NCBI RefSeq assembly: GCF_030145185.1
Contig: NZ_JAQYWB010000017.1
Span: 1 to 64,000, forward strand
Source of the DNA: Desulfoluna sp.
GTDB taxonomy: Bacteria > Desulfobacterota > Desulfobacteria > Desulfobacterales > Desulfolunaceae
Direction of reading: 5' to 3'
Length of the DNA stretch: 64,000 nucleotides
In this document: one piece after another, positions 13,407 to 35,336 of the stretch
Layout: each line of letters begins with the position of its first letter
How positions within the stretch are numbered: position 1 is the first letter of the stretch
Notes under the pieces: model-generated
What the model saw: only the letters and a program-made list of their open reading frames with translations
Database searches by the model: none
What the model was told of the DNA's origin: nothing
Program-made: the position numbers and the translations under genes

Positions 13407-15026
13407 TCAGGAAATAAATTCATCGCTTTTATCAACATAGTTTTTAGGCTGTCCCAGGAGAAACAGGCCCTCTTTGACCACAGAGACACACATAAAGAGG
13501 GTTAAAATCATCATGGGAAAACCGGCCAGGGAGAGCATCCCTCGAAGGGAGCTGACACCCCCTGAAGCCACAAGGAGATAGGCGATCGTTCCAGTGGTCA
13601 GACCCCAGATAATCTTAAGGCGGATGGGGGCCTCTTCTTCGACGCGCAACCCTTTGGTGGAGAGGGTGGCGAGCACGGAAGTCATGGGATCTGCCAGGGT
13701 GGCAAAAGAGATGGCCACGGTGATAACAAACACAACGATGAGCAATGTACTCATGGGAAACTGCTGAAAAATCGCATAAGCCGTGGATTCAAAGCCATTT
13801 TGCTGAACCGCGGCCCAGATATCGAAAACCCCTGACCATTGAAACTGAACCGCAGTGCCACCGAAGATGAACATCCAGACGTAACAGAATACGGTGGGGG
13901 GAAAGACGTTGACCAGAATAAACTGGCGAATGGTGCGCCCCCGTCCGAGGCGGGCCAGAAAAAGGCCCAGAAGCGGCGCATAGGTGAAAAAGGACGCCAT
14001 AAAGACGGGGATCCAGTTGGCAGGCCAGGGATCGTTGGGAACCATGGCGTTTAAAAGCATGCTGTTTCTGAAGAAGTTCCCCACAAAGTACCCGAAGGCT
14101 TCGGTGCCGACGGTCAGGATAAAAAGGGTCGGCCCGAAGAGGAGGGTAAAGAGCATAAAAACAAAGAAGATCCTCGTGCACTGAGCGGAGAGGAATTGCA
14201 TACCGCGCTTGATCCCGGTGGTGGAAGAGAAGGTGTACATGCCGATGACGCCAACGGCAAGGATGCCCCACATGACCTTGCCGAGGGTCACATTCAACAG
14301 GAACCCGACACCGCTGCCCAGCTGCATGAGACCGGCCCCTAAGCTGCAGGCCACCGCGCAGCAGAGAGAAAAAAGACAGGTTGCGTGGATAATGGAGGTC
14401 ATGGCAGGTCGCCATGAACGGGGAAACAGAGAGTAAACCCCAGCAGCTACCGATAAAGGATACCGCTTGTTGTAGGCCACGAGGGCGATGGCTACCCCGC
14501 AGATGGTATAAATACAGTACTGGGCCACGCTCCAGTGCAAGACAGCCTGGGAGATGGCAAAGATCCCTGCATCACGTGAGCCAGGAACGAGGGGGAGCCC
14601 TTGGGGGGGCTGCATCATGTGGAAAATAGGATCGCCCATCCCCCAGAAGAGAATACCGATGCCGATACATCCGCAAAGGGCCATGGAGAACCACTGCCAC
14701 AGGGTGTACTCGGGCGTGGCATCCTCTCCCCCGAGCCTGATATTCCCAATTTTTGAGAAGGCGATACAGAAGGTAAAGATCACGATGGCCATGGAGCTGA
14801 AAACGTTCAACCAGCCAAAGTGGGTGCTGAGCCACCCTTTGCAGGTGTCTATAAAAATCTTAAACGCCCCCTGGTTCAACAGTCCCAGTCCGATGAAAAG
14901 AATCAGAACAATGTAGCCCGGCCAGAAGGCAAAGGGGTTGATCTTTTGCCGCTCACTCGCGTTGGCTTCCGTTTCGGAAGTGACAGGTTCACCCAAACCC
15001 GTTTCGAGCACGGCTGTTTGATTCAT
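13407..15026 (-). CDS. BCCT family transporter 1
   Basis: I start at the ATG at 15026, preceded by a GGAG site, giving about 539 residues. Twelve or so membrane segments and the family landmarks are present: NPFAFWPGYIVLI, FWGMGDPIFHM, and APLLGLFLARLGRGRTIRQF. BCCT carriers import betaine, carnitine, choline or related zwitterions with Na+ or H+ or by exchange. The tryptophans that cage quaternary ammonium groups in the BetP helix 8 are replaced here (MASFFTYAP against WAWWISWSP), so the substrate may not be a classical betaine. It is the last gene of the dapA-like operon. Confidence 0.9.
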   Translation of the reverse strand: MNQTAVLETGLGEPVTSETEANASERQKINPFAFWPGYIVLILFIGLGLLNQGAFKIFIDTCKGWLSTHFGWLNVFSSMAIVIFTFCIAFSKIGNIRLGGEDATPEYTLWQWFSMALCGCIGIGILFWGMGDPIFHMMQPPQGLPLVPGSRDAGIFAISQAVLHWSVAQYCIYTICGVAIALVAYNKRYPLSVAAGVYSLFPRSWRPAMTSIIHATCLFSLCCAVACSLGAGLMQLGSGVGFLLNVTLGKVMWGILAVGVIGMYTFSSTTGIKRGMQFLSAQCTRIFFVFMLFTLLFGPTLFILTVGTEAFGYFVGNFFRNSMLLNAMVPNDPWPANWIPVFMASFFTYAPLLGLFLARLGRGRTIRQFILVNVFPPTVFCYVWMFIFGGTAVQFQWSGVFDIWAAVQQNGFESTAYAIFQQFPMSTLLIVVFVITVAISFATLADPMTSVLATLSTKGLRVEEEAPIRLKIIWGLTTGTIAYLLVASGGVSSLRGMLSLAGFPMMILTLFMCVSVVKEGLFLLGQPKNYVDKSDEFIS

Positions 15027-15087
15027 AATTTTTTCTCCGTTATTCGGTCCGCCCCATCCTGCCCATCCCTCCCCGCCGGGGTGAGTC

Positions 15088-15494
15088 TCACGAGAAAGGC
15101 GACAGATCGCCTTTGGCAGCAATGGACTCATCTGCCAGGCGCACGTTGACTCCGATGGCCTTGAAGGGTTCGGGCGGGCACCACCGCGGCGTGGTGGTCT
15201 TCTTCAGGTACCTCAGCTCTTCGCTGTTTTCGCCACAGGCCCACTCGGCCAGGTAGACCCCGAGCATGGAGCTGTGGTGGGTTAGGCCGGCGCCTTCGGC
15301 AGCGGCGTAAATGCGCTTGTTGACCTGGGTGAAGAGAGATTCCCCGTTAAGGGTCAGGGGAATCATCCCGCCGTAGACAGACTCGACGTTCACATGTTTC
15401 AATCAGGGAAAACGCGATTCAAAGAATCTACGCATCCGGTTGATCACATGATTGTGCAGCCTGAACCGCCGCCGGTGGTCACAAAGTCAAACGG
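15088..15494 (-). pseudogene. Decayed FAD-dependent (DAO-type) oxidoreductase
   Basis: The minus strand reads NRMRRFFESRFP, an in-frame TGA (15403-15405), then LKHVNVESVYGGMIPLTLNG and on to a GVNVRLADESIAAKG end. This is the pattern of the C-terminal FAD-binding part of DAO/PuuB-like amine or amino-acid oxidases (RMRRFFP...YGGMVPLTLN). About 375 residues expected upstream are missing. In a different frame 15447-15494 encodes PFDFVTTGGGSGCTIM, which may be a remnant of the N-terminal dinucleotide-binding motif. An internal deletion plus a stop explains both. It lies between ridA and BCCT1 and probably once oxidised the operon's amino-acid substrate. Confidence 0.7.
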
Positions 15495-15748
15495 GCCTTC
15501 AGATCATTGATATCGGCAGCTTTGTGTTCTTTGTGCCGTGACACATCAAACCAACCAAGATGTCCTGCCGCAACCGGAAAAATCTGTGCATCTCGCATGC
15601 CCCACCTTTAAAGGTTGATTTTCCATCGATCGAGAACTGAATCGTCATCAACGAGGCTCCAAAAAGAGACCGCGCCGTCGTTCCCACTCGAATTTTTGAC
15701 AAAAAGGCGGTTGACGCCCCCTTTACCACCCTGTCAACCGCCAAAATG

Positions 15749-16126
15749 TCACTCCACCACGGCGATGGCTTCGATTTCAATCATCATGTCCAGGACAAGA
15801 CGCGAGACCTCAACGCATGCCCTGGCGGGCTTATGACCGCCCATGACGTCGGCATAGACCTTATTCATGGCCCCCATCGCGTCCACATCGCTGATATAAA
15901 GGGTCACCTTGGCAAGGTTCTTCATGCCCATCTTATTGTGCTTTAAAAGCCCTTCAAGGTTGGCAAAAGCCTGCTTCGCCTGGGTGGTCATGTCGCTGCC
16001 CACCACCGCCCCGGTTTTCGGGTCAAGGGGCACCTGCCCGGAGATAAAGACCTGATTCCCCACGCGCATGGCCGGGCTGTAGAATGAGTCTTCAATATTA
16101 AAACCCGGAGTATACAAAGGCTCCAT
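15749..16126 (-). CDS. RidA family enamine/imine deaminase
   Basis: The 125-residue length is typical for RidA (YjgF/YER057c/UK114). It keeps the signature region: GNQVFISGQVPLDPKTG, the catalytic Arg in ARACVEVSRL near residue 104, and the Glu in MIEIEAIAV near 119. RidA hydrolyses reactive enamine or imine intermediates to keto acids and ammonia and protects PLP enzymes. In an operon with a dapA-like aldolase/deaminase and a decayed FAD oxidase it would handle imines from amino-acid oxidation. The gene sits 49 bp after the dapA-like gene. Confidence 0.92.
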   Translation of the reverse strand: MEPLYTPGFNIEDSFYSPAMRVGNQVFISGQVPLDPKTGAVVGSDMTTQAKQAFANLEGLLKHNKMGMKNLAKVTLYISDVDAMGAMNKVYADVMGGHKPARACVEVSRLVLDMMIEIEAIAVVE

Positions 16127-16175: not shown

Positions 16176-17078
16176 TTAATAAAGCTCGATGGACTCAAGA
16201 ACCGCATCGATATTCTTCATCTCTTCCTCGGTCAGGGGAAGGCGGGGAGCCCTTACCTCGCCTCCGACGAGGCCCACCTTGCCCATGATGTACTTGGTGG
16301 TCTGGGTCACCTTTCCGGCGGTCTCCAGGTACCGGGCAAGGGGGGTGTAGATATCGGTCAGAGCCCTGGCCTTTACGATGTCACCGGACTCGGCGAGCTC
16401 AAAAATATCCCGGGTGAGTCCGGGAGCAAAGTTGGCTCCCATGCAGACCCAGCCCTTGGCACCGGCTAAGAAGGACTCATGATGCATGTCTTCCCAACCG
16501 CAGAAGGGTGTAAGTTTCCCCTTGAGCTCGGTGGAAATCCGGGTGATACGTTTGATGTCCCCTGACGCTTCCTTGATGGCATCGACGTTGGGAAAGTCTG
16601 CAATCTCTTTGATCACATCAAAATCCATGTCCATCCCCGCACTTCCGGGATTGTTGTAAAGCAGAACCGGAGTGGTGATGGCCGCGGTGACATCTTTATA
16701 GAAAGCGATGATCTCGTCTTCCATCAGACCGGTCCCAGGGGGGGGGAGAATCATAACCCCGGCGGCCCCGTGAGCCCCGGCATGGTTGGTCAGATCAATC
16801 ACGTCTTCTGTGCGGTGCGCGATGGTGCCCACCGTAAAGGGGATGCGCCCGTCGATCACTTTGGCGACATGCTCCACGAGAGCCTTGCGTTCGTCAAAGG
16901 TCATGGTGAGATACTCACCAAGGGCCCCGGCGACCATCACCCCATGGGCACCGACTTTGATGTAATGCTCGAGGTTTTTGGTCACCCCATCAAAATCGAT
17001 GGCCCCATCTTTAAGAAATGGCGTCGCCATCACAATATACACGCCTTTTAACTTGCCCAATGGACTCTCCTCATTCAT
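16176..17078 (-). CDS. DapA/NAL family lyase or deaminase
   Basis: This 300-residue class I aldolase-fold protein carries the family features: MATPFLKDGAIDFDG at the N terminus, VGTIAHRTEDVIDLTNHA, the proton-relay Tyr in LLYNNPGSAG, and the Schiff-base Lys in AIKEASGD near residue 168. The family includes dihydrodipicolinate synthase, N-acetylneuraminate lyase, 2-keto-3-deoxy aldolases and pyrroline-4-hydroxy-2-carboxylate deaminase. With ridA, a FAD-oxidase remnant, BCCT carriers and AcnX nearby, a hydroxyproline-type deaminase is an attractive guess. It is first in an operon behind a near-perfect sigma-54 promoter. Confidence 0.88.
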   Translation of the reverse strand: MNEESPLGKLKGVYIVMATPFLKDGAIDFDGVTKNLEHYIKVGAHGVMVAGALGEYLTMTFDERKALVEHVAKVIDGRIPFTVGTIAHRTEDVIDLTNHAGAHGAAGVMILPPPGTGLMEDEIIAFYKDVTAAITTPVLLYNNPGSAGMDMDFDVIKEIADFPNVDAIKEASGDIKRITRISTELKGKLTPFCGWEDMHHESFLAGAKGWVCMGANFAPGLTRDIFELAESGDIVKARALTDIYTPLARYLETAGKVTQTTKYIMGKVGLVGGEVRAPRLPLTEEEMKNIDAVLESIELY

Positions 17079-17234
17079 ATATTAGTTCACATTTTTCTCA
17101 ATAAGCGGGCATGCATCCCCACGCGTCTACGGGCGGACAAACACAGCCTGCCATCATGATTTTAAAGAAAACCTTCTAAAAAAAGACTTTCGTTCCAGCT
17201 TATTTTAAATCATTCATTTTCATGCATGCTTATA

Positions 17235-17250
17235 GGCAACCTTTGTGCCA
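17235..17250 (-). promoter_or_regulatory. Sigma-54 promoter of the dapA-ridA-BCCT1 operon
   Basis: On the minus strand the sequence is TGGCACAAAGGTTGCC, which matches the -24/-12 consensus (TGGCAC, 5-bp spacer, TTGC) exactly, with GG and GC correctly spaced by 10 bases. Transcription should start near 17223, leaving a leader of about 145 nt before the dapA-like gene. Confidence 0.85.
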
Positions 17251-17378
17251 AAACAATCAAATAGAGTATTAAAAAATCAAAATAAGACCATACACACTTA
17301 AAATAGGGGGAGTTACTACCGCCCAAGAAACTTGCCACAGGGTCCCTCTCCTCCCCAAAAATGTCGCCGCCCCCCTTC

Positions 17379-17395
17379 AGTCCCAATATAAGACA
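17379..17395. promoter_or_regulatory. 17-bp dyad, activator site U1
   Basis: Read on the minus strand this is TGTCTTATATTGGGACT. It matches the dyad TGT-N2-CAT-N-WTG-N2-ACA, shared by six sites in this window, in all but the last base and one inner base. It is about 130 bp upstream of the sigma-54 promoter at 17235. Confidence 0.6.
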
Positions 17396-17420
17396 GTTGT
17401 CTCTGCTGCCTTGACGCCAC

Positions 17421-17437
17421 TGTCCCATAATGATACA
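17421..17437. promoter_or_regulatory. 17-bp dyad, activator site U2
   Basis: TGTCCCATAATGATACA has perfectly matched TGT/ACA and CAT/ATG half-sites. It lies about 170 bp upstream of the sigma-54 promoter, a normal distance for an enhancer-type site. Confidence 0.7.
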
Positions 17438-17620
17438 GGTTTATTGAAAATACGCAGAATTTGCCTGGGTGCTCTCCCTGGGGTCTTAGTCATATTGGGT
17501 GTTCAGGCTTGATAGGCTCTCCCTTCCATGGCCCCAAGGCAGCTATCACAAAGGTATCCCAGACAACGATAAACCTGCGAAAGAGCCCACAAGGCGCAAA
17601 TAGATGAGCGCCCCTCTCGT

Positions 17621-17637
17621 TGTCCCATTTTGACACA
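17621..17637. promoter_or_regulatory. 17-bp dyad, activator site U3
   Basis: TGTCCCATTTTGACACA lies 30 bp before the start codon of the activator gene itself and may mediate autoregulation. The remaining 588-bp gap (17079-17666) contains AT-rich DNA and a degenerate half-site CATATTGGG at 17491-17499, but no gene. Confidence 0.65.
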
Positions 17638-17666
17638 TTCACCCGAAGCACCGCCTGGAGCAACGC

Positions 17667-19616
17667 ATGCATGACAGGATAGCCACACTCACCACCTGGA
17701 AAAAATTTATTGCCGGCCAGGAGATCGCCCCTGACGAGGTTTCTGACTATGTGCTCAAATCCTGGAAGACCTGCCGTCTCCAGGGCGTGGACCCCGAGGC
17801 CTCGCCTCCGGTGGAGGTGCTCACCGGCAAGGCCCTTGAGCGCGTGCTCAAAAATAACGCCGCCCTCATAGACGCGGCCCGGCCCATCCTGAACATGGCG
17901 GCCATCTCCAAACGGTCCACCAACTCCATTGCCCTTCTCTACTCGGTGGAGGGGGTGCTCCTTGCCGTGGAGGGGGACGAATCGGCGCTCTCTCTGGGAG
18001 AACGCGCCTTAAACAGACCAGGCTGCCTCTGCTCCCCGGAAAAAATGGGAGGACGGGCCATCACCCTCAGCCTTCAGGAGGGTCACCCCTTGAGCCTTTG
18101 CGGGGCCGAACACTACTGCAAAGAATTTCACCCCACTTCCTGCTACGCAGCGCCCATCTACAGCGAGAAGGGGGACACCGTGGGCTCCATCGGCATCTCT
18201 GGATGGACCCCCGAGTGGCATCCCCACACCCTGGCCCTGGTTACCTCGGCGGCTGAGGCCATCAGCACCCGATTGCGTGAAGCCGCCCTGGCCAAAAACC
18301 AGCACCGCCTCAACTCCATGCTCATTTCGGTCTACAACTCTCTTCCCGAAGCCATCCTGGGCCTGGACACCCAGGGCAGGATCACCCACGCCAACTCAAA
18401 CGCCGCCGCCCTCCTCACCATGGAGGCCCAAGGGCTTTTGGGGTTGCGGGTAGGGAGCCTGCTCCATGACGGCTGCAAGGAAGAGGTCCTGGACCTCATC
18501 ACCCAGGGCAAGGTCTCATCATGCGATATCCGATTTGCAGACAGCTTGGACACAACGCTTCACCACTGCCGCATCCAACCAACCCTGGTCTCCTCAGGCA
18601 AACCGGTGGGCATGACCTTGAGCATCACCACCCACAAACAGCTTGTAGACATGACCCAAAAGCTGGGCGGCAACTGCGCCATTCACGACTTTCACCACAT
18701 CAAAGGGGATTCCCAAGAACTGAAAAAATGCATGGCATTGGCCCGCAAGGTCGCCGCATCCCACTCCCGGGTGCTGATCACAGGGGAGAGCGGAACGGGC
18801 AAGGAGCTCTTTGCCCAAGCCATTCACAACAACAGCCCCGTCCGAAAAGGCCCCTTTGTCGCCATCTCCTGCGCCGCCATCCCCAACCAGTTGATGGAGG
18901 CGGAATTCTTTGGCTATGTGGGCGGGGCCTTTACCGGCGCCCGCAGACAGGGGGCCACAGGCAAATTCGAGATCGCCTCCGGCGGGACCCTTTTCCTTGA
19001 CGAGATCAACAGCCTCCCCCTGGATATGCAGGCCAAACTGCTGCGCGCCATTCAACAAGGTGAGATCGTGCGAGTGGGAGACACCGCCCCCACCCCGGTT
19101 CATGTGCGGATCATTGCGGCGACCAACCGGGACCTCATGCACGCGGTCCGTGACAAAAGCTTTCGGGAAGACCTCTACTACCGCTTAAACGTGGTGGAGT
19201 TAAAGCTCCCCCCCCTTCGCCTGAGGCCCTCTGACATCCCCATCCTGGCCCGACACATCATCGACACCATCAACAAAGACACAAAATGCCAGCCCTCAGA
19301 GATCACCGACGAGTTTCTCTCCGCCCTGACCTCCTACAGCTGGCCCGGCAATGTCCGAGAGCTCTACAACGCCTGTGAACGGGCCCTGGTCATGGCAGAC
19401 GGTGAAGCCCTTTGCGCCGTCCATATCTCAGACCGCATCGAATGCCCCACAGGCTCGCCCAAAGGCATGCCCATAATCCCCCTTGAAGAGAGCATAAAAG
19501 TCCATATTAAACAGGCCATCGCCTTCCATAACGGCAACATGACCAAAGTCGCAGCCTCCCTTGGCATGCCTCGGAGCACCCTCTACCGCAAGTTGGAAAG
19601 GTACAAAATCAAATAA
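17667..19616 (+). CDS. AcoR-like sigma-54-dependent activator
   Basis: This 649-residue protein has an N-terminal GAF-type sensory region (around 40-205; GGRAITLSLQ, GSIGISGWTPEW), a PAS domain (around 215-310; LNSMLISVYNSLPEAILGLD), a central AAA+ domain with Walker A GESGTGKE near 373, the sigma-54 contact motif GAFTGA near 420, and FLDEINSLP, then a C-terminal Fis-type helix-turn-helix (NMTKVAASLGMPRSTLYRKL, around 615-645). This architecture is that of AcoR/DhaR regulators, which bind a small ligand rather than being phosphorylated. It lies between two sigma-54 operons that share 17-bp dyads, its likely binding sites. Confidence 0.93.
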   Translation: MHDRIATLTTWKKFIAGQEIAPDEVSDYVLKSWKTCRLQGVDPEASPPVEVLTGKALERVLKNNAALIDAARPILNMAAISKRSTNSIALLYSVEGVLLAVEGDESALSLGERALNRPGCLCSPEKMGGRAITLSLQEGHPLSLCGAEHYCKEFHPTSCYAAPIYSEKGDTVGSIGISGWTPEWHPHTLALVTSAAEAISTRLREAALAKNQHRLNSMLISVYNSLPEAILGLDTQGRITHANSNAAALLTMEAQGLLGLRVGSLLHDGCKEEVLDLITQGKVSSCDIRFADSLDTTLHHCRIQPTLVSSGKPVGMTLSITTHKQLVDMTQKLGGNCAIHDFHHIKGDSQELKKCMALARKVAASHSRVLITGESGTGKELFAQAIHNNSPVRKGPFVAISCAAIPNQLMEAEFFGYVGGAFTGARRQGATGKFEIASGGTLFLDEINSLPLDMQAKLLRAIQQGEIVRVGDTAPTPVHVRIIAATNRDLMHAVRDKSFREDLYYRLNVVELKLPPLRLRPSDIPILARHIIDTINKDTKCQPSEITDEFLSALTSYSWPGNVRELYNACERALVMADGEALCAVHISDRIECPTGSPKGMPIIPLEESIKVHIKQAIAFHNGNMTKVAASLGMPRSTLYRKLERYKIK

Positions 19617-19919: not shown

Positions 19920-20339
19920 CTACTTATAGACATGAAGATAGTCTGAATCCTTGAACAATTCGATTTCTTTGCCCTCGGCCAGTTTGGCGTAGTCCTCTTC
20001 CGAAAGGTTAATGACGGAAAGTGTCTGGTCGTAAAAATGGTGACAAACCAGGGGCCCCGTCAGGATGACAGGATCGGTACGAATATTGATGATGGCCGCA
20101 GGTGCGGTACCGATGCGCAGCATCTCCATGAGAACAAGCCCGGCACCGCTGCTTCCTTTACCAAAGGGAAAGGCAAACACCTTGCCAGTAATATTCTGCT
20201 TGTAATTCGCGTGGCGATAGTCACTCACATCACCTGTCTGGATGTTCACACCGCCGACAAAGCTGATGGGATCATTGGAAAACACCAACTCCGCGCGAAG
20301 ATCTTCGGCAATGACTTTTTTGCACTCTAATTTGACCAT
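19920..20339 (-). CDS. AcnX small (swivelling, DUF126) subunit
   Basis: The 139-residue protein has the DUF126 layout of the aconitase-X small subunit, with the conserved phosphate/substrate loop FPFGKGSSGAGLVLMEM around residues 56-72 and GTAPAAIINIRTDPVILTG. In split AcnX enzymes this swivelling domain closes over the catalytic large subunit. Its start overlaps the large-subunit gene by 13 bp, so the two are made together. Known AcnX reactions are dehydrations, for example of cis-3-hydroxy-L-proline or, in archaea, of mevalonate 5-phosphate. Confidence 0.92.
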   Translation of the reverse strand: MVKLECKKVIAEDLRAELVFSNDPISFVGGVNIQTGDVSDYRHANYKQNITGKVFAFPFGKGSSGAGLVLMEMLRIGTAPAAIINIRTDPVILTGPLVCHHFYDQTLSVINLSEEDYAKLAEGKEIELFKDSDYLHVYK

Positions 20340-21589
20340 GGTTTTTTGCTCCTTATGACCTTGCCCGCCACAGCGGTTTCAACGCACTCGTTGATATTTC
20401 CAAACACAGGATGGATACCCACTTTGTTAAAGCAGTAGGTGGCAAATTTTCCTGAATTGGTCATGATGGACCGCGTACCCCATTTGTCGGTGGGGTATTC
20501 CATGATGCAACCGTCAACAAAAACATGAACGCCCAGGCGCTTGACGCGGTCCAGCAACCCGCTGTCTTGAACGGTATTGTAGGTACCACGACCGGTAAAG
20601 ATCCACATCTTGGTGTTCTCGCTGACCCGCCGTCCAGCAAAGGCATCTTCCAGATCCTGGAACTCGGCACAGGAAAAGTGGGGGCACCCCAGCGAAACAA
20701 GATCGATTGAACCGTCTCCATCAAAATTACACAGTTCGGCCTCGGCCTCACGAAGATGGGCCTGGGTGAGGGTAACCACCTCTGTCGGCTCTTTGTCGAA
20801 GGCCATCTCACGGGTCTGAGCCTCGGGGGTAACGCCGATCAGGTGAAACAAGGCAATGCCGCCTGATGACGCGGCCGTGGCACTGAACTGCTTCAGGTCG
20901 TCCATGGCAATCTGGGTGGGCATGCCGTCCAGTGCCCACACCCTGTCACCAACAATGCTGCCGTAGGCATAAGCAATAAAGTTATACAAGCTGCGATCCG
21001 CAAACATGTCTGGGGTGATGTCGTCACCTAAAACAACCAACCCTTCGGCTTTTCTGTTTTCAGGAACATGCAAGCCAAAGTACGGGACGCGCCCGGCGAT
21101 GCCGGCCAGCAATTCCAAGGGGCCGGCATAACGATTGGTGCGAGCCCCAAGGATGGAGTTCACGAAGGCGATGACGTTGGATTCCGCGCAGGCGACCTGC
21201 TGGCCGAAGGCGGGAGAAAACCCAGCCTGATAGGGAGCGCAGGTCCAGCTGGCGATGGCCCCCATCTTCAGGTGGGAGGCTTCGATGCGACGAGTGGCCG
21301 CCATCCAATCGCTTCCGTGACGCTGAATGTCCCACCGTTTCATATCCAAAGCCACCGCGTTGGTGGAGGTGGGGACTGCAAAGTGGGCTCCTAAGTCGGC
21401 GAGGTGCTCTGCAAAAGCGACCTGAGCCTCTCCAAAATAAACCGTACTGTCGTCATGGCATCCAACGATCTCAACGAAGCGATCAACGCCATAGTATACG
21501 CCAAGATCGTAGAGCACGTTCATGGCCATCTGACGAGCCTCTCCATGCTTTCCATCCAGCAACGCTTTTTCATAATCCGTTAATTGCAT
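20327..21589 (-). CDS. AcnX large (DUF521) dehydratase subunit
   Basis: This 420-residue catalytic subunit of the aconitase-X family shows the family pattern: TSTNAVALDMKRW, WTCAPYQAGFSPAFGQQVAC, ESNVIAFVNSILGARTNRY, LGCPHFSCAE, and VDGCIMEYPTDKWG. Cysteines in TCAP, GCPH and DGC are in the places used for iron-sulfur cluster binding in AcnX. With BCCT2 upstream and the small subunit downstream, a cis-3-hydroxyproline-type dehydratase giving a pyrroline carboxylate is the best functional guess. The exact substrate is not provable from sequence. Confidence 0.92.
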   Translation of the reverse strand: MQLTDYEKALLDGKHGEARQMAMNVLYDLGVYYGVDRFVEIVGCHDDSTVYFGEAQVAFAEHLADLGAHFAVPTSTNAVALDMKRWDIQRHGSDWMAATRRIEASHLKMGAIASWTCAPYQAGFSPAFGQQVACAESNVIAFVNSILGARTNRYAGPLELLAGIAGRVPYFGLHVPENRKAEGLVVLGDDITPDMFADRSLYNFIAYAYGSIVGDRVWALDGMPTQIAMDDLKQFSATAASSGGIALFHLIGVTPEAQTREMAFDKEPTEVVTLTQAHLREAEAELCNFDGDGSIDLVSLGCPHFSCAEFQDLEDAFAGRRVSENTKMWIFTGRGTYNTVQDSGLLDRVKRLGVHVFVDGCIMEYPTDKWGTRSIMTNSGKFATYCFNKVGIHPVFGNINECVETAVAGKVIRSKKPWSN

Positions 21590-21702: not shown

Positions 21703-23298
21703 CTACTCTGCAGAGGAACCCAACCTACCCCTGGTACAGGAGCCCTCTACAGGGGTGACAACCGAATCCATGGCTGCCCCTTTTTCGAAGTATCTGGCCG
21801 CACTTATCACGGCAGAGACACAGATACCGATCAACAAAAACATTAAGGGGAACCCGATGAGAGTAAACATCCCGCGGATGCCATCAATGCCTCCGGTGGC
21901 GATGATGAGATAAGCAATGGTGCCAATGGTTCCGCCCCAAAGAAGCTTCAAAGTACGTGGAGGCTCTTGATCAATGTGCAGGCTCTTGCAGCTGAGGGTG
22001 GCCAGCACGCTGGTCATGGGGTCGGCATAGGTCACCAAAGAGGCAAAGATCGCAAAGAGAAAGACCGCGATAAACACTTTGGCCAGAGGGTACTGGTTGA
22101 AAATAGCGAACACCGTATTCTGCATGCCGTTGGCCTGAATGCTTGCCCACATGTCGAAGGAACCGGAAGACTGAAGATAGATAGCCGTGCCGCCAAAAAT
22201 GGAGATCCAGATGAAGCAAAAGGCGGAGGGCCCAAAAATGGTCATGGCGATAAACTGCCGAACCGTACGCCCCTTAGCGAGTCGGGCATAAAACAGGCCG
22301 ATCAGGGGAGCCACGACAATCATGGACGCCCAGTACTGAACGGTCCAGTTTTTGGCCCACTGGTCAGTGGTCAACGCGTTGGTGACGGTGGCTTTATCAA
22401 AAAAGGTGGAAAACATATCGCCAAGGGCGGCAACCCCAATGTCCGCAATAAAGTTCGTCGGCCCGAGGAGAAGCATCACCAGGGCAAGCCCCAGGAAAAT
22501 CTTGGTGTTCAGCGAGCTAAGAAAGCTCAAGCCCTTCTTCATACCGGTAATACTGGAGAAGGTGTAGGTCGCCGTAATCACAATGGCAATAACCAGCCAG
22601 AGGAGTTTGCCCTCAGAGACACCGAAGAGGTTGTTTAACCCACTACCAATCTGCAGCAACGCCGCCCCCATGGAACAGGAAACTGCACCACACAGGGCAA
22701 ACAGGCAGATGCCGTTGATAATATGCCCCACGGTACCCGCAGCTTTTTCACCAAGCAGACCACTCAGAGAAGCACTGACCGAGAAATTTGAGGCCTTGCC
22801 GTACGCCACTAAGGCTGCTCCAAGCGCGCCCATCGTGTACATGGAATACTGCATGATGGTCCAGTGGAAGGCCGCCTGGGAAATAGCGTTAACCCCTGCC
22901 TGGTGGCTGAAGGGGACAAGCCCGCTCGCCTGAGAGGGTTCCGCGTAAAAAAACATCGGCTCCCCCATGCCCCAAAACAGAATGCCGGTCCCGATACCGG
23001 AGCAAAGGCAGATGCTGAACCACTGCCACATAGTGAGATCAGGCTTGGCATCCTGACCGCCAATGCGTATATCTCCAAATTTGGAAAAACTGAAATAAAG
23101 TGAAAACACAACGCACGCCAACGCAACAAGCATGTAAAGCCAGCCAAACTTGGCCGACAGCACATCAAGGGCCCCGTTAAGAAAAGAACCAAGCGCATCG
23201 GTGTTCAAGATACCAACGGAAATAAACACAACCATGCAGATAAATGCCGGAAAAAATGCCATGGGCTGAATGGGCCACTTTGTCGAATTTCTATCCAC
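21703..23298 (-). CDS. BCCT family transporter 2
   Basis: This 531-residue carrier is related to BCCT1 and shares FWGMGEPMFFY, a helix-8 region YWASMIVVAPLIGLFYARLA and KGRTVRQFI. A good ribosome site (AGGAGG) precedes the start. As in BCCT1, the BetP tryptophan-box positions carry other residues (S, M and V). The transported molecule is therefore unlikely to be glycine betaine itself. It is the first gene of the BCCT2-AcnX operon behind a sigma-54 promoter, suggesting that it brings in the AcnX substrate or its precursor. Confidence 0.9.
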   Translation of the reverse strand: MDRNSTKWPIQPMAFFPAFICMVVFISVGILNTDALGSFLNGALDVLSAKFGWLYMLVALACVVFSLYFSFSKFGDIRIGGQDAKPDLTMWQWFSICLCSGIGTGILFWGMGEPMFFYAEPSQASGLVPFSHQAGVNAISQAAFHWTIMQYSMYTMGALGAALVAYGKASNFSVSASLSGLLGEKAAGTVGHIINGICLFALCGAVSCSMGAALLQIGSGLNNLFGVSEGKLLWLVIAIVITATYTFSSITGMKKGLSFLSSLNTKIFLGLALVMLLLGPTNFIADIGVAALGDMFSTFFDKATVTNALTTDQWAKNWTVQYWASMIVVAPLIGLFYARLAKGRTVRQFIAMTIFGPSAFCFIWISIFGGTAIYLQSSGSFDMWASIQANGMQNTVFAIFNQYPLAKVFIAVFLFAIFASLVTYADPMTSVLATLSCKSLHIDQEPPRTLKLLWGGTIGTIAYLIIATGGIDGIRGMFTLIGFPLMFLLIGICVSAVISAARYFEKGAAMDSVVTPVEGSCTRGRLGSSAE

Positions 23299-23418: not shown

Positions 23419-23434
23419 TGCACCTTCTATGCCA
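23419..23434 (-). promoter_or_regulatory. Sigma-54 promoter of the BCCT2-AcnX operon
   Basis: On the minus strand the sequence is TGGCATAGAAGGTGCA. It has 5/6 matches to the -24 box, 4/5 to the -12 box, and exact GG-N10-GC spacing. The predicted start near 23408 leaves a leader of about 110 nt. Three 17-bp dyads lie 130-310 bp upstream. Confidence 0.75.
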
Positions 23435-23563: not shown

Positions 23564-23580
23564 TGTAGCGAAATGGAACA
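23564..23580. promoter_or_regulatory. 17-bp dyad, activator site U4
   Basis: TGTAGCGAAATGGAACA keeps the TGT/ACA ends and the ATG half of the dyad. It is 130 bp upstream of the -24 box of the BCCT2 promoter. Confidence 0.6.
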
Positions 23581-23605: not shown

Positions 23606-23622
23606 TGTGCCATTTTAGGACA
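23606..23622. promoter_or_regulatory. 17-bp dyad, activator site U5
   Basis: TGTGCCATTTTAGGACA matches TGT, CAT and ACA of the shared dyad, with the centre WTG changed to TTA. Its centre is four helical turns (42 bp) from that of site U4. Confidence 0.6.
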
Positions 23623-23712: not shown

Positions 23713-23729
23713 TGTTTCATATTGGGACA
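23713..23729. promoter_or_regulatory. 17-bp dyad, activator site U6
   Basis: TGTTTCATATTGGGACA is one of the best copies of the dyad. Apart from the sites, the promoter and the terminator of the neighbouring dehydrogenase gene, the 727-bp gap 23299-24025 shows no coding sequence. Confidence 0.7.
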
Positions 23730-24025: not shown

Positions 24026-25309
24026 TTAGACAGCGAGTCGTTTCTTGAGTTCTTCCTTTCCCAGATAAGCCACGTGGAAAAAGTCTTTCAGGTTCTCAAG
24101 GGTGGCCTTGCGGGGATTGTACTGGCTCATGCAGTACATCTCTTCGGCCCTCTCCAGGATGTATTCCGCCATGGAGGGGATGTCTTCCTCTTTCATGCCG
24201 TAATCTTTAAGAGAGGTGGGCACATCCAGATCTTCCATCAGCTGGAATGTCTCCAAAATGGCTGCTTCTGCCGCTTCCTGGCGAGTCATATCCGTGGTAT
24301 CGATCCCCATGCTTTCGGCAATCATGGCCAGCTTCTTTTTGGCGTAATCGTCGGCCAGGTTGTACCAGTAGACATAGGGAAGCAACACACCGCAGGCATC
24401 GCCATGGGACATGTTCAGCATGGGGGAGATGCCTTCAGAGGCCGCATGGCCAAGGGTCGCGGGTCCCGCCACCCAACCAAAGCTGATCACCATGCCACCG
24501 ATCATAGCGGACATGGCCATGTTCCAGCGGGCTTCAGGGTTGTCCTCTCCGTGATGGTAAGCGGCCCTCAGGTTAGTGAAGACAAGCTGCACCGCTTCAA
24601 GGGAGAGGCAGTCAGAAAAGGAGTTGGCCTGCTTGGAGAGAATCCCTTCCGCGCAGTGGCTCAAGGCGTCAAGCCCCGTTGCAGCGGTCACCCTGGGGGG
24701 AAGATTCGCCATGAAGGTGGGGTCGAGAATGGCTGCATTGGCGAGAATGGCTTCGCCGGCCACCCACGTCTTCTGTGAACCCAGGGCGCAGCCCTCGGCA
24801 ATCACCACGGCAGTGTTTGAGGCCTCGCTGCCGGTGCCGGAAGTCGTGGGGATAAGAATTTTGGGAATCACCCCGTCCATGGGAACCGGCACCTCGTTGG
24901 GAGCCACATAGTCGGGAAGCTTTTCGGGCATGGAGGCAAAGGCAGAGGCGAGCTTGGCACGGTCCAGCGAGCTGCCACCGCCGAACCCGATGACGATACC
25001 GTAGCCCCCTTTACCTACCTTCTCACAGACCTCAATGACCTGGCTCATCACAGGCTCAATGGCGCCCTGGGCAAACACATCAACGGTAAAGCCGCTCTCT
25101 TCAAGGGACTTCACCACGGGTTCGGTGTAGCCCAGGTCGTCAATGGCATGATCGGTGATGATGATGGCTTTCTTGTTTTTGGCATACTTCAGGGCCACTT
25201 CACCGGTCTTCTTTACCGCGTCAAAACCGAACTTGATATCAGGGAGCAGACCATATTCGTCAACCCTGTTCATCAAATGACCATTGTGCTTTGCTAATGA
25301 CTGAAACAT
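24026..25309 (-). CDS. Iron-containing alcohol dehydrogenase (EutG-like)
   Basis: This 427-residue group III alcohol dehydrogenase has the nucleotide-binding FGGGSSLDRAKLAS, the PTTSGTGSEASNTAVV segment, and the metal-binding Asp/His residues in ATGLDALSHCAEG, GHAASEGISPMLNMSHGDAC. It would reduce acetaldehyde to ethanol with NADH, or oxidise an alcohol. Its place at the end of the eut gene run suggests the EutG role. A 482-bp gap separates it from eutQ, so it may also have its own promoter. A 3' fragment of a sister gene survives at 19790-19905. Confidence 0.88.
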   Translation of the reverse strand: MFQSLAKHNGHLMNRVDEYGLLPDIKFGFDAVKKTGEVALKYAKNKKAIIITDHAIDDLGYTEPVVKSLEESGFTVDVFAQGAIEPVMSQVIEVCEKVGKGGYGIVIGFGGGSSLDRAKLASAFASMPEKLPDYVAPNEVPVPMDGVIPKILIPTTSGTGSEASNTAVVIAEGCALGSQKTWVAGEAILANAAILDPTFMANLPPRVTAATGLDALSHCAEGILSKQANSFSDCLSLEAVQLVFTNLRAAYHHGEDNPEARWNMAMSAMIGGMVISFGWVAGPATLGHAASEGISPMLNMSHGDACGVLLPYVYWYNLADDYAKKKLAMIAESMGIDTTDMTRQEAAEAAILETFQLMEDLDVPTSLKDYGMKEEDIPSMAEYILERAEEMYCMSQYNPRKATLENLKDFFHVAYLGKEELKKRLAV

Positions 25310-25371
25310 CTTTTTCTCCAGGCAATTTTTTGTATAATTCGATCAAACAAGATGAGGTAAATTACGTATGA

Positions 25372-25413
25372 CCAACCCATGTTGGTTACTGAAAGCAGGT
25401 TACGTATCAAAAT
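25372..25413 (+). repeat. REP-like element, copy 1
   Basis: A short hairpin (CCAAC-CCAT-GTTGG) is followed by TGAAAGCAGGTTACGTAT. The tail is shared, with few changes, by elements at 25743-25790 and 38832-38873. It lies in the 482-bp gap 25310-25791, which holds no gene but also contains a GCGAATGCG/CGCATTCGC inverted repeat (25710-25718 with 25753-25761). Confidence 0.5.
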
Positions 25414-25742
25414 GCATGCCATCATCCATGGTGTATTCTTTTTGCTCAAGAAATGAGCATCTTAAATACCCGCCCGCCATCCATGGCAAAACCCGGCCCC
25501 TCCTGCCGGTCTCTGCCCACCACCTTTTACGCCACCCTTTGTAACGATCTGTTCAGTTTTTATGGATTCCTGCCCTTTCCAGGGGAACACCCAGCCGTAA
25601 GATAAAATAAGGCCTTCCATGGTTAATGCGGGTGAAAACAGCAGGGTTCTGACGACAAAGTATCCCCCCCGTTCTGTCTGCGATTATGACGCATACCGTC
25701 AAAAACTGCGCGAATGCGGACGCATTTCAGCCTGAGATGACG

Positions 25743-25790
25743 ATTTCCACAACGCATTCGCAAATCAGCTCTCAAGGTGGCTCACCTTGG
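25743..25790 (-). repeat. REP-like element, copy 2
   Basis: Read on the minus strand: the hairpin CAAGGTG-AGC-CACCTTG, then GAGAGCTGATTTGCGAATGC. It matches the element at 38832-38873 at roughly 36 of 42 positions with one inserted base. It directly follows the eutQ stop codon. Confidence 0.65.
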
Positions 25791-25791
25791 G

Positions 25792-26457
25792 CTACTGGTC
25801 GGCCCAGTCCGCGGGGTAGGTGCAGAACATGAACCGGGTGGCATCCGGGGTGCTGAAGGTGATGGCGCTGTTTCGGGGAATAAAGAGGATATCTCCCTTG
25901 GAGGCCGTCACCTTGCGCCCGTCGATGAGGATGTCAAGGGTGCCTTCGATGATGTAGTCCACCTCATCGTATTTAAGGGTCCAGTCAAAGGCGGCCCCCT
26001 CTTTCATCGCCATAATCCCAAAGCCCAGGCGTGGGCTCTCCGCAAGACTCACCACATCGGTGATATACACCTTGTCGCCTGGTTTCCCTGTGTCAAAGGG
26101 GGCCGGATTTACCGTCTCCGCCTTGACGCAGAGGACACCGCTTTGACTGTCCACGGTCTTTTGAAAACCCTTTGTGTTCCCTGCCAGATTCGCGGCCACG
26201 AGCTGACGGATCAAGGGTTCCAGCGCCGCTACGTCATGGGTGTCCATGACGCACTCACTGCAATCCATACACTCCGGCGCCCCGCGGGGAGCCTCCTTCG
26301 TTTCGGGATCCCGGGGCTTCACGCCCTCAATGATCTTCACCTTTTTATCCCGAAGAAGGTCCCGGGCCATGGGGGTTACAATCATCGCCTCATCAAGGTA
26401 GAAGACCCCCTCTTTTACTTCTGCCATGACGATATCGGCACCGATCAACCTCTTCAT
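25792..26457 (-). CDS. eutQ: EutQ-like cupin protein
   Basis: This 221-residue protein has a C-terminal cupin barrel (around 110-215; YDEVDYIIEGTLDILIDGRK, GDILFIPRNSAITFSTPDAT) typical of EutQ. Its N-terminal region carries an unusual cysteine cluster (ECMDCSECVMDTHD, around residues 62-75) that could bind metal. EutQ is needed for ethanolamine use under anaerobic conditions in Salmonella and has been reported to have acetate kinase activity. It follows eutE by about 90 bp, in which a hairpin at 26486-26527 lies. Confidence 0.88.
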   Translation of the reverse strand: MKRLIGADIVMAEVKEGVFYLDEAMIVTPMARDLLRDKKVKIIEGVKPRDPETKEAPRGAPECMDCSECVMDTHDVAALEPLIRQLVAANLAGNTKGFQKTVDSQSGVLCVKAETVNPAPFDTGKPGDKVYITDVVSLAESPRLGFGIMAMKEGAAFDWTLKYDEVDYIIEGTLDILIDGRKVTASKGDILFIPRNSAITFSTPDATRFMFCTYPADWADQ

Positions 26458-26549
26458 CTAAGCCTCACTCCTTTACGCCGTATCAAGTGGGAGCCCATGC
26501 CCCGTGAAGGGACATGGGGCTTCCCCCTACGTTTGCCATCATCAAAAAA

Positions 26550-27992
26550 CTACCGAACGGCGCTCATCTTTTTAAGCTGGTCCATGATCAGGGAGGTCAC
26601 CGCCTCCACGTCCAGGGTCCCCTCCCCTCCTGCTGCGGGTTTCGCGCAAGGGGCATCCAGGCCATAGGCCATTCGGCGAATGTTAAACAGGTGCTGAGGG
26701 CCCACGTTCTCCGAGGTGGCGCTTCCGCCCACCGTCCCGCATCCCAGGGTAAAAGAGGGCGGCAGGTGGGTGGTGATGCCCACGGCCCCTTGCGTGGTGG
26801 GGGTGTTGACCAGAAAACGGGAGACGGGTTTTTTCAGCGCGAACTCACGAATGACGGTCTCATTGTTTGAGTGAATGCCCATAGAGTGACCCAGCCCCCC
26901 ATTTTTAAGAAGCTTAAAGCAGATCTCACAGGCCTCCTGCCAGTCGTTGACTGTGTAAAAACCCAAAAGCGAGGTGAGCTTCTCCTTGGAGAAGGGGAAC
27001 TTGGGTCCGATCCCCTCTTCTTCGGCCACTAAAATGGTGGTCCCGGCGGGAATCTTAATCCCTGCGATCTTTGCCAGATCGGCGGGGCTCCGTCCTACAA
27101 CAGCGGGATTCATGGCGCCATTGGGGCGTTCCATCACGCGCTTCATCGCCTCAAGGGCGTCACCGGTTAAAAAATAGGCGCCCTGGGCGACCAGGCTCTT
27201 TTTAACCCTGTCGGCGATACAGGCTTCCGTCACAATGGACTGTTCGGAAGCGCAGACCGTGCCGTTGTCAAAGGTTTTTGAGGATAGGATCTTCTTCACC
27301 GCCACATCCACATCCGCGCTGCGTTCGATAAAGGCAGGCACATTGCCGGGCCCGACCCCCAGCGCCGGGGTCCCGGAGCTGTAAGCCGCCTTGACCATGG
27401 CCGCCCCGCCGGTTGCGATGATCATATCGGTAAGCTTCATAAGTTCTGCGGTCCCCTCAATGGTGGGGACACTGATAACTCCCACAAGCTCTTCGGGGAG
27501 CCCCTGGGCCTTGAGCACCCCTTTGACGAGGTTCACGGCGGCCGTGATGCACTTTACAGCGCCGGGATGGGGGCTGAAGACGATGGCGTTGCCACTCATC
27601 AAGGCGATGATGGCATTGTAGAGGGTGGTGGAGGTGGGGTTGGTGGAGGGAAGAAGCCCTGCAATCACCCCCATGGGAGTGGCGATCTCGACAATTTTCT
27701 TCTCCAGGTCATCCCTGATAATTCCGAGGGTCTTCATCCCTTTGTAGTACTCAACCAGTCGGACAGTGGCCTGAATATTCTTTTGTTTTTTATCCTTCCA
27801 TTTACCAAAGCCGGTCTCTTCGCTTGCCATGATGGCAAGTTCTTCAGCCTTTTCAGCCCCTGCCTTGGCAATGGCTTCAACAAGAGCATCGACAGACTCT
27901 TGACCGGCTTCCTGTAAAACAGGCTGGGCGGAACGTGCAGCACGCACCAGGGCACGGGCTTCCTGGATTGAGAGTAAATCCTTATCTACCAT
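26550..27992 (-). CDS. eutE: Acylating acetaldehyde dehydrogenase EutE
   Basis: I start at the ATG at 27992 (480 residues), preceded by AGAGGA; a longer frame upstream has no ribosome site. The protein is a CoA-acylating aldehyde dehydrogenase: TPMGVIAGLLPSTNPTSTTL, GPGNVPAFIE, and the catalytic Cys in FDNGTVCASEQS near residue 247. It converts acetaldehyde, CoA and NAD+ to acetyl-CoA. The N-terminal segment (LLSIQEARALVRAARSAQPV) resembles an amphipathic encapsulation helix that would target it to the microcompartment lumen. It lies in the eut operon after the shell genes. Confidence 0.93.
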   Translation of the reverse strand: MVDKDLLSIQEARALVRAARSAQPVLQEAGQESVDALVEAIAKAGAEKAEELAIMASEETGFGKWKDKKQKNIQATVRLVEYYKGMKTLGIIRDDLEKKIVEIATPMGVIAGLLPSTNPTSTTLYNAIIALMSGNAIVFSPHPGAVKCITAAVNLVKGVLKAQGLPEELVGVISVPTIEGTAELMKLTDMIIATGGAAMVKAAYSSGTPALGVGPGNVPAFIERSADVDVAVKKILSSKTFDNGTVCASEQSIVTEACIADRVKKSLVAQGAYFLTGDALEAMKRVMERPNGAMNPAVVGRSPADLAKIAGIKIPAGTTILVAEEEGIGPKFPFSKEKLTSLLGFYTVNDWQEACEICFKLLKNGGLGHSMGIHSNNETVIREFALKKPVSRFLVNTPTTQGAVGITTHLPPSFTLGCGTVGGSATSENVGPQHLFNIRRMAYGLDAPCAKPAAGGEGTLDVEAVTSLIMDQLKKMSAVR

Positions 27993-28072
27993 CTGTATCC
28001 TCTTCTTTTGTTTATTGATGGACAACGGGGACGTCGGACATTTCAAAAAATGCCCCCACATGCCCCCTTGCG

Positions 28073-28684
28073 TCATGCATCAGGTAATGATTTTATATAG
28101 GTTTCGAATGCTTCGAGAAGCTCCCTTTTCCTGGCGAACTTAATCCGGCCCCTTTCAATGGAGAAGGCGGGAATCTGACGGGCCAGTCCCCTGAGCCTTG
28201 AGACCTTGGTGCGTTTAAGCTCCGCTAAGTCAACGGCGATTGCCCCTGGGTCCTGTTTTTTTCCCCCGCGGCTCCAGGGGGCTGGCGTTAACGGGATAGC
28301 CCCCTGAACTGCGGGAGTTTGGGCCTCCCCACACTCTGAGGGGCAGGGCAGGCCACCTTCGGCCTCTTCTTCTACCTTCGAGCTCGAGATCACACGGACC
28401 AATCGTCTCTCTTCGTCCATAAGAATCTCGTCAAGGCCATCGGCCTTCCGGGCGATGACCGTGACGGCACGCACCGTCCCCAGCTTTGCCGCCGCCGTAC
28501 GGCCTGCATCCACAGAAGCCTTGACGGCAGAGACATCCCCAGCCATCAAGACAGAGACAAGGCCTGCCCCCACCCGTTGCAGGCCGATGATGGAGACATC
28601 GGCGGTCTTCACCGCCACATCTCCGGCTTCCACTGCGGGAACAAGTCCTACCGTTTCAATGATTCCAAGCGCCTTGCCCTTCAT
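28073..28684 (-). CDS. EutK-like BMC shell protein with C-terminal extension
   Basis: The 203-residue protein has an N-terminal BMC-H domain (residues 1-85: ALGIIETVGLVPAVEAGDVA, LQRVGAGLVSVLMAGDVSAV), a disordered acidic/proline-rich linker (around 100-150), and a basic C-terminal domain (LKRTKVSRLRGLARQIPAFS, IKFARKRELLEAFETYIKSL). The layout is that of EutK, whose C-terminal domain is a helix-turn-helix-like module thought to bind nucleic acid. It would be a minor facet tile. It follows eutL by 13 bp. Confidence 0.85.
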   Translation of the reverse strand: MKGKALGIIETVGLVPAVEAGDVAVKTADVSIIGLQRVGAGLVSVLMAGDVSAVKASVDAGRTAAAKLGTVRAVTVIARKADGLDEILMDEERRLVRVISSSKVEEEAEGGLPCPSECGEAQTPAVQGAIPLTPAPWSRGGKKQDPGAIAVDLAELKRTKVSRLRGLARQIPAFSIERGRIKFARKRELLEAFETYIKSLPDA

Positions 28685-28697
28685 GGGCGTCTCCCGT

Positions 28698-29351
28698 CTA
28701 ATATTTTAAAGGGTGGTCGGCCACATGCTGAACCGCTTCGCCAAAGGCATCGCACGCGGCCTTGCAGGCGGACTGGCTTCCTGTAAGCAGAGCCCCACCG
28801 AAGTTGGTTTCAGACGGAGGGCCATAAAAGACCGCCATCTTTACATCCGCCGCCTTAAGGGCCGCATCCACTGCGTACACCGCTTCGATGGGAGGGGCGA
28901 TGAGGTACGCCATGGCCTCGCCTTCAGGAATTTTCGCCTCTCCGGAGAGAAACGAGCCACTTCGCGAGATACAATGGGCGTAGTAACAGATCGAGTCATC
29001 CTCGTTGCAGCTGTAAAAACAGGCGTCTTTTTCAATGAAATCGATGGCGGCGTTGAGTCCGCTTTTCACCTCTGCGGGGTTGGGGCCAGAAAGGATGGCG
29101 ATAAACTCTCCGGCAAGCCGTGTATTCGCATTCACGGCACCGCCATAACAACTCTTGGCGTAGACCACCCGCACATCGGCTTTCTTCGTGGCTTCATCCA
29201 CAGCCGTATACCCCACGTCGTCTATATCGCAGGTGAGCATTCCCAGGCTGCGGTGCTCAGGCGGCAGGGTGAGTTCCCCGACCATCGCCTGATCCACGTT
29301 GGGTATCATCTTCACGCTCAACACTTTGGATTTAAGTGCATCCCCTTTCAT
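28698..29351 (-). CDS. eutL: Microcompartment shell protein EutL
   Basis: Starting at the ATG at 29351, behind AGGAAAG, gives 217 residues, which matches EutL (about 219). Two BMC repeats form the trimeric BMC-T tile: SVKMIPNVDQAMVGELTLPP, VRVVYAKSCYGGAVNANT and AGEFIAILSGPNPAEVKSGL in the first; CYYAHCISRSGSFLS, AMAYLIAPPIEAVYAVDAAL and GGALLTGSQSACKAACDAFG in the second. EutL forms gated pores for larger metabolites and cofactors. It follows eutA and precedes the eutK-like gene. Confidence 0.92.
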   Translation of the reverse strand: MKGDALKSKVLSVKMIPNVDQAMVGELTLPPEHRSLGMLTCDIDDVGYTAVDEATKKADVRVVYAKSCYGGAVNANTRLAGEFIAILSGPNPAEVKSGLNAAIDFIEKDACFYSCNEDDSICYYAHCISRSGSFLSGEAKIPEGEAMAYLIAPPIEAVYAVDAALKAADVKMAVFYGPPSETNFGGALLTGSQSACKAACDAFGEAVQHVADHPLKY

Positions 29352-29487
29352 ATCTTTCCTCCTTGAAGGCTCATCCCCAGGTTCACGAATGCTCCCGTAC
29401 ACAACGGTATGGGTTGCTCACGTTCTTTCAAGCTCTTCATGGTTAAAAACATATCTATGAAGAGATATTACAATCTGCCATCATTAT

Positions 29488-31005: not shown

Positions 31006-31023
31006 CGTCTTTTCCCTGGGTTC

Positions 31024-31920: not shown

Positions 31921-31939
31921 GTGATTTAACGCTCCTTGC

Positions 31940-33671: not shown

Positions 33672-33689
33672 GCCGCACCGGAGTGCGGC
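33672..33689. terminator. Bidirectional terminator after the eut response regulator
   Basis: GCCGCAC (33672-33678) pairs with GTGCGGC (33683-33689) around a 4-base loop. Five A residues on the left and a T-rich tail on the right let it act on both strands. It lies about 80 bp beyond the stop of the response regulator gene, separating the regulatory genes from eutB. Confidence 0.75.
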
Positions 33690-33769
33690 GATTCTTTTCA
33701 GCCCGTCTTTTTCAGGTTTTTTTCAAGATCACAGCCGAAACGATGACCAAATTGCGCCATGTTAATAAA

Positions 33770-35263: not shown

Positions 35264-35336
35264 CGTCTTTACCCCTTCACCTGATGACTCCGTAAAATCC
35301 AAGTCCCGGACAGATTAAAAACCATAGATCGGGACC

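Follow-up and report, generated by a model that had tools for sequence, protein, structure and literature searches.

The locus analysed here encodes a putative sigma-54 activator between two operons, and raises the question of which DNA sites this activator recognizes and which genes it serves. Our analysis of the window (the whole 64,000-nucleotide stretch) points to six 17-bp dyads, three upstream of each operon: we propose, with a probability of about 0.8, that the dyads are enhancers of the activator encoded at 17667-19616, which would switch on dapA-ridA and BCCT2-acnX in response to a hydroxyproline-type signal. This would assign to an uncharacterised activator its DNA-binding site, a pair of target operons and a probable class of substrate.

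Each operon is faced by a candidate sigma-54 promoter. P1 (TGGCACAAAGGTTGC, 17250-17236, minus strand) faces dapA-ridA, in agreement with the earlier note, which had predicted a -24/-12 promoter facing the dapA-like gene; P2 (TGGCATAGAAGGTGC, 23420-23434, minus strand), absent from that note, faces BCCT2-acnX. Both contain a GG-N10-GC core and resemble TGGCAC(G)-N4-TTGC, and the genome carries rpoN, the gene for sigma-54 (PF04552). As -24/-12-like sites with at most two mismatches are not commoner in the window than by chance (60, vs. 65.7 in shuffles), the case for P1 and P2 is built on position, pairing and conservation, and not on the hexamers alone. P1 shares the intergenic region 17079-17666, between the dapA-like gene (minus strand) and the activator gene (plus strand), with the dyads at 17379, 17421 and 17621; P2 shares the intergenic region upstream of BCCT2 with the dyads at 23564, 23606 and 23713.

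The six dyads have a consensus, stronger half first, of about TGTCCCAWWWTGNNACA. The P1 region contains a promoter-proximal copy (17379-17395), a distal copy (17421-17437) and a third copy (17621-17637), which lies 29 bp ahead of the start codon of the activator gene and is perhaps autoregulatory; the P2 region contains a promoter-proximal copy (23564-23580), a distal copy (23606-23622) and a third, far copy (23713-23729). The dyads at 17421, 17621 and 23713 have no mismatch, and those at 23564 and 23606 have one each; the dyad at 17379 has two mismatches on the minus strand and three on the plus strand. Thus, all three dyads previously placed near the activator gene are present, although that at 17379 is a degenerate copy, and the three recurrences before the second operon are borne out.

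The six dyads are all the sites with at most two mismatches in the two upstream regions; shuffled versions of these regions contained 0.13 such sites on average and two at most, and six were reached in none of 2000 first-order Markov shuffles. In the window as a whole, the loose dyad (at most two mismatches) has 17 matches; shuffles averaged 6.6, with 15 as the maximum, and 17 was reached in 0 of 100. Because the dyad pattern was derived from these very sites, independent tests, namely a matrix made without the window and the loci of relatives, count more. The matrix was made from 22 TGT-N11-ACA sites beside relatives of at least 35.5% identity, with sites present in 15 of 22 loci and the window left out; it takes in three sites from L149, which turned out to be a dapA-type locus. 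Scored with this matrix, the six dyads take ranks 1 to 6 among 63,984 positions of the window (in the order 23713, 17421, 17621, 23564, 23606 and 17379), with scores of 22.0 to 13.2 and a next-best score of 10.6; with the inner 11 columns alone they rank 7th to 153rd of 63,984. The matrix and the relatives' loci described below support the proposal of the earlier note that the dyads are the site of this activator.

The arrangement of the sites is the same at both promoters: two dyads lie exactly 42 bp apart, a pairing not listed in the earlier note, and the distance from the first base of the proximal dyad to the first base of the -24 element is 145 bp at P1 and 146 bp at P2. Pairs at 42 bp, with at most two mismatches, occur at only these two loci in the 5.79-Mb assembly, and at none in a reversed control. 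The tight motif TGTCCCAWWWTGNNACA has four matches in the genome with zero or one mismatch, all in the P1 and P2 regions from which the consensus was drawn; the tight motif is not common genome-wide, whereas its being common at random positions had been named as one of two outcomes that would count against it. With up to three mismatches it is no commoner than a reversed control (463 vs. 561). The looser dyad of the earlier note is about twice as common as its reversed control (491 vs. 256), and its count alone would not settle whether the motif is specific. Among 30 genome-wide dyad loci outside the window (16 with one mismatch to the loose dyad and 14 with two to the tight motif; the window's own locus, L241, is uncounted), an open frame of at least 80 codons covers the dyad in 26, the other four being L004, L021, L230 and L237, and a partner dyad at 42 bp was found in none. 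At L230 (contig 11, 129779-129795), a second dyad-like site lies 34 bp off. A sequence that closely resembles a sigma-54 site (TGGCACAGCGGTTGC) is found 81 bp from the dyad, and another activator gene a few kilobases away; the dyad is possibly a site of that neighbouring activator.

The activator (649 aa, plus strand) has, as judged from domain profiles, the order GAF-PAS-AAA+-Fis HTH. Its AAA+ domain scores 229 bits with PF00158 (cut-off 20.2) and contains GAFTGA in the translation, as expected of an enhancer-binding protein, and its C-terminal Fis-type HTH scores 42.6 bits with PF02954 (cut-off 22). It reached the cut-off of none of the listed NCBIfam equivalogs; for the two best of these, identity with PrdR (NF041552, 378 bits vs. 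a cut-off of 795) and with DhaR (NF008485, 362 bits vs. 551) was rejected. The N-terminal 340 aa served better than the full length as a query for finding relatives; the scan with the whole activator covers the best 80 of 360 relatives, which align mostly over the AAA+ domain, with identities of 33-52%. When the flanking DNA of 47 relatives of the activator is scanned for TGT-Nk-ACA, counts peak at k=11 (38, vs. 16 for the next best k and about 7.7 for the summed means of first-order Markov shuffles); for the 10 relatives of at least 39% identity alone, k=11 gives a count of 7, and the highest count among 200 shuffles is as large.

Genus-mates of the window's genome contain no match to its dapA (0 of 5 at E<=1e-45) and only weak, N-terminal matches to its activator (25-26%, in 3 of 5), so that the support from conservation comes from another family. 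Within the order, dapA relatives occur in 6 of 389 genomes, own included; the five other loci had no match to RidA, BCCT or the activator in the stretch examined and are therefore not taken as orthologous. When 288 genomes of another family were searched with the N-terminal portion of the activator from L149, eight had matches. Uninterrupted activators with 44-49% full-length identity to that of the window, closer than any acetoin-linked one compared, are encoded at L262, L263, L264 and L265. All four loci contain a dapA-family gene (its product 40-42% identical to the window DapA in L262, L263 and L264, and 34% in L265) and a gene for a DAO-family oxidoreductase, which in L265 is the first gene of a divergent operon next to the activator, with dapA about 3 kb further. 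A pyridine-nucleotide/BFD-type oxidoreductase is also encoded in three of the four (the contig of L264 breaks off); L262 has, besides, genes for a proline-racemase-family protein and an aldehyde dehydrogenase, and L263 one for a 2Fe-2S protein. By family and context, these genes would encode D-hydroxyproline dehydrogenase, hydroxyproline epimerase and ketoglutarate-semialdehyde dehydrogenase.

The architecture of the window recurs at these loci with varying fidelity: dyads are paired at 42 bp in L264, 41 bp in L263, 41 bp in L262 (one copy degenerate) and 40 bp in L265 (both degenerate, and the promoter weak), and the proximal dyad lies 145, 147, 103 and 115 bp, respectively, from the -24 element. 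Of these four, L263 and L264 alone show both members of the pair in clear form. An extra dyad lies 25 bp from the pair in L263, and another is located downstream of the promoter in L262. As the window does at 17621, L149, L263 and L264 carry dyads shortly upstream of the activator gene. The motif is thus not absent from orthologous loci, as the earlier note had allowed that it might be, but is found with this architecture in four other genomes, in two of them in degenerate form.

A further set of loci, those of the other four of the eight genomes, from four species of one genus (L149, L259, L260 and L261), has an in-frame TGA in the PAS-AAA+ linker of the activator gene (L149:8500-8600), with both sides conserved; by eye, no in-frame ATG, GTG or TTG follows within about 28 codons of the TGA in L149 and L261. 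Both a split regulator and read-through are possible. The same dapA and oxidoreductase genes are present at three of the four, and L261 has none within the 12 kb examined; in L149, L259 and L260, a single full dyad lies upstream of dapA, about 120 bp ahead of a sigma-54-like site. In three genus-mates of the window's genome (L154, L156 and L157), three dyad-like sites, including two at a distance of 17 bp from each other, lie upstream of a more distantly related activator (33%); the sites are near the activator gene in L154 and L156, and 270-360 bp upstream in L157.

The spacing of the pairs differs between the hydroxyproline-type loci and those of acetoin-linked relatives. In a scan of 53 spacings, with weights set by hand after the sites had been seen and with hand-picked regions, 42 bp stands out in seven hydroxyproline-type regions (4.6 sd) and 19 bp in 11 acetoin regions (5.9 sd). 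A pair at 40-42 bp is the best or second-best in six of the seven, which include both window promoters, the original source of the value 42, along with L262, L263 (where 41 bp comes just behind the 25-bp pair), L264 and L265; a pair at 18 or 19 bp is the best in nine of the 11. The exceptions are L149, without a pair at 40-42 bp, and L150 and L226, without one at 18-19 bp. It is tempting to see here a geometric enhancer code, in which pair spacing, instead of half-site sequence, helps to separate the regulons of two sister groups of one phylum with nearly the same dyad, and we put this forward only as a tentative idea. If true, the difference could show how paralogous enhancer-binding proteins escape cross-talk.

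All 11 relatives from other families with 38-43% full-length identity have acoA and acoB in the locus and the same type of dyad there, and a tree made without the closer relatives placed the window activator and that of L149 among acetoin-linked activators, in a clade of 13 rows (100/99); both observations would suit a plain acetoin regulator (AcoR), with the two operons serving acetoin or a related ketone. However, no match to acoA, acoB, acoC or lipA is present in contig positions 1-82000, the dyads are paired at 42 bp and not at 18-19 bp, and, when the closer relatives are added, a tree of 30 activators groups the window activator with dapA-linked ones, apart from the aco group (100/100), with a single change of the dapA-linked label in 100% of 200 bootstrap trees. 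Assignment to AcoR by clade is thereby rejected, and an acetoin regulator appears quite unlikely; the description "AcoR-like" in the earlier note holds as a statement of kinship, but not of group. The activator is best read, from sequence, as a member of a clade beside AcoR with a hydroxyproline-type regulon. The dyads might instead serve one or more of the other sigma-54 activators that the genome encodes: it contains 49 sequences that match the activator, of which the 48 besides itself all lack at least its first 184 residues, and TGT/ACA motifs with spacers of 9, 11 and 12 bp are common to several activators of Desulfovibrio vulgaris in the available part of PMC4641369. Such ownership is unlikely, given that the activator gene sits between the two operons, that sites of this type and spacing accompany its clade in four other genomes, and that k=11 does not stand out (count of 3) at seven loci of other activators in the same genome.

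Two further explanations, both highly improbable in our judgement, take the dyads out of sigma-54 activation or deny that their recurrence carries weight. A 17-bp palindrome is also typical of repressor operators, and one dyad lies just before the activator gene, so that the dyads could be operators of an unrelated repressor, with the activator using other sites; yet in five genomes, own included, pairs lie 103-147 bp upstream of a -24 element beside this activator clade, and a dyad with at most two mismatches is present in 10 of 11 acetoin-type loci, scanned as whole loci. Chance or duplication, with the second promoter region copied from the first, could draw on the paralogy of BCCT1 and BCCT2 (47% identical), but P1 stands before dapA and not before BCCT1, and the same architecture is found in L263 and L264. 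Moreover, the P1 and P2 regions, compared in register, agree at 31 of 128 positions between promoter and sites, 6 of 25 between the sites and 43 of 183 beyond them (about 24% identity outside the dyads); since the DNA around the dyads is this dissimilar, recent duplication does not explain the match, and we reject P2 as a copy of P1, unless a duplication took place so long ago that its traces are gone.

Dyads of TGT and ACA half-sites 9-12 bp apart form an established class of sigma-54 enhancers, as described in the available parts of PMC4641369 and PMC6615313. The same half-sites and spacer class as in the window are reported there for Clostridiales activators (PrdR, AdhR and others; TGT-N10-12-ACA; PMC6615313), where the clostridial AcoR motif is listed as distinct, and for Desulfovibrio vulgaris (TGT-N9/11/12-ACA; PMC4641369); neither source, as far as its available text goes, links such sites to hydroxyproline genes. 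In Clostridium beijerinckii, disrupting any of three predicted TGT/ACA sites impaired AdhR-dependent promoters (PMC7017808, from the part of the article available). The AcoR-type activators compared here, which lie beside acetoin dehydrogenase operons, resemble the window in having TGT-N11-ACA dyads near sigma-54-like promoters, and differ from it in target genes, tree group and best pair spacing. The sigma-54 promoter before the proline racemase gene of Bacillus thuringiensis HD73_1024-1025, in another phylum, is presented in the available text of PMC4428206 with its activator given as unknown and with no dyad pair described; HypR of Streptomyces coelicolor serves the same kind of pathway, hydroxyproline utilisation, and belongs, by the title of PMC6608401, to another regulator family (GntR type). 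We found no paper in the open-access literature naming a sigma-54 activator of hydroxyproline genes, and the regulon and the spacing difference appear to be new.

The transcript from P1 is probably shorter than first proposed. It would begin with a DHDPS/DapA-family enzyme (16176-17078, minus strand), for which a role in lysine biosynthesis was rejected (TIGR00674, 174.4 bits vs. a cut-off of 206.15), and continue with a RidA-family imine/enamine deaminase identified by family profiles (15749-16126, minus strand). After ridA lies a likely intrinsic terminator (15701-15742, minus strand), absent from the earlier note, with a 10-bp stem, a 17-nt loop and a T-run; the 61-nt stretch has a folding energy of -23.9 kcal/mol (z -3.4) and is not listed by a simple scan, which takes loops of 3-8 nt only. 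Because of this terminator and a 617-bp gap (15132-15748) that holds no dyad with at most two mismatches, BCCT1 (13407-15131, minus strand), which the earlier note had made the third gene of the operon, probably lies outside the dapA-ridA transcript. Between ridA and BCCT1, an ORF at 15088-15402 (minus strand) has the look of a gene remnant, but it fits none of the Pfam or NCBIfam families and has no convincing counterpart in the loci compared, and a weak -24/-12-like sequence (GGGCATGCGAGATGC, 15602-15588) precedes BCCT1.

P2 faces BCCT2 (21703-23298, minus strand), followed by genes that sequence matches identify as the large (20327-21589, minus strand) and small, swivel (19920-20339, minus strand) subunits of aconitase X. 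Both transporters belong to the BCCT family (PF02028), and a glycine betaine carrier was rejected for both (NF047988, 329 and 350 bits vs. a cut-off of 650). A Trp-rich stretch in TM8 is a mark of quaternary-amine BCCT carriers; the stretch reads WAWWIAWSP in the closest solved relative, WASMIVVAP in BCCT2 and MASFFTYAP in BCCT1, neither of which has the Trp-rich pattern, and the two are perhaps from a BCCT branch for another substrate. Among structure matches, aconitase X is favoured by 7d2r (209 bits) over 7cnr, a DUF521 protein (172 bits). The two subunits score 316 (large) and 87 bits (small) against an AcnX equivalog cut-off of 700, in a model of one chain where here there are two genes; in the available text of the sources, two-subunit bacterial forms of aconitase X are reported (PMC8184944), and the single-chain gene is often found in hydroxyproline clusters (PMC5144071).

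Relatives of AcnX are present in 32 of 395 genomes, own included, with one close locus, L199 of genome G286, where AcnX is 48-49% identical; L200, L201, L207, L208 and L209 were also looked at. L199 combines AcnX with dapA, proline-racemase-family, MTTB and ABC transporter genes; its proline-racemase-family protein passes the cut-off for 4-hydroxyproline epimerase, and another protein that for pyrroline-5-carboxylate reductase. No match to the activator was found at L199, which is a possible hydroxyproline-betaine locus. L208 (contig 87 of the window's own genome) encodes a second aconitase X, 27-28% identical, about 3.5 kb from another sigma-54 activator, and has no dyad with at most one mismatch. 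In the examined parts of the window's own genome, no gene for D-hydroxyproline dehydrogenase turned up. A hydroxyproline-type substrate is our best guess because of the reported forms and gene clusters of aconitase X, because P1 faces RidA and a DapA that is below the lysine cut-off, and because the AcnX of G286 is near genes of epimerase and reductase type.

From the sites, their pairing, their conservation and the clade of the activator, all evident in the sequence, we infer binding, activation, ligand and chemistry as follows. The GAF/PAS domains would sense a metabolite, most likely a hydroxyproline or a breakdown product of one; the Fis-type HTH would bind the two dyads, whose separation of 42 bp, or four helical turns, would place them on the same face of the DNA; and the activator, as a one-component regulator, would loop to sigma-54 polymerase waiting at the -24/-12 elements, where the AAA+ ring, through its GAFTGA loop, would open the promoter. 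In this manner, dapA-ridA would be turned on from P1 and BCCT2-acnX from P2, and the activator may control itself through the dyad before its own start codon. The probable role of the activator is thus to induce the utilisation of hydroxyproline-like compounds; if so, sigma-54 control would extend to hydroxyproline-type catabolism in this phylum.

Elsewhere in the window, positions 24026-37985 hold an ethanolamine cluster that encodes EutB, EutC, EutA, two shell proteins, an aldehyde dehydrogenase and an Fe-alcohol dehydrogenase; next to it are genes for a sensor kinase and for a sigma-54 activator of the response-regulator type, and a -24/-12-like sequence (TGGCAAGCAACTTGC) lies at 38762-38748 on the minus strand.
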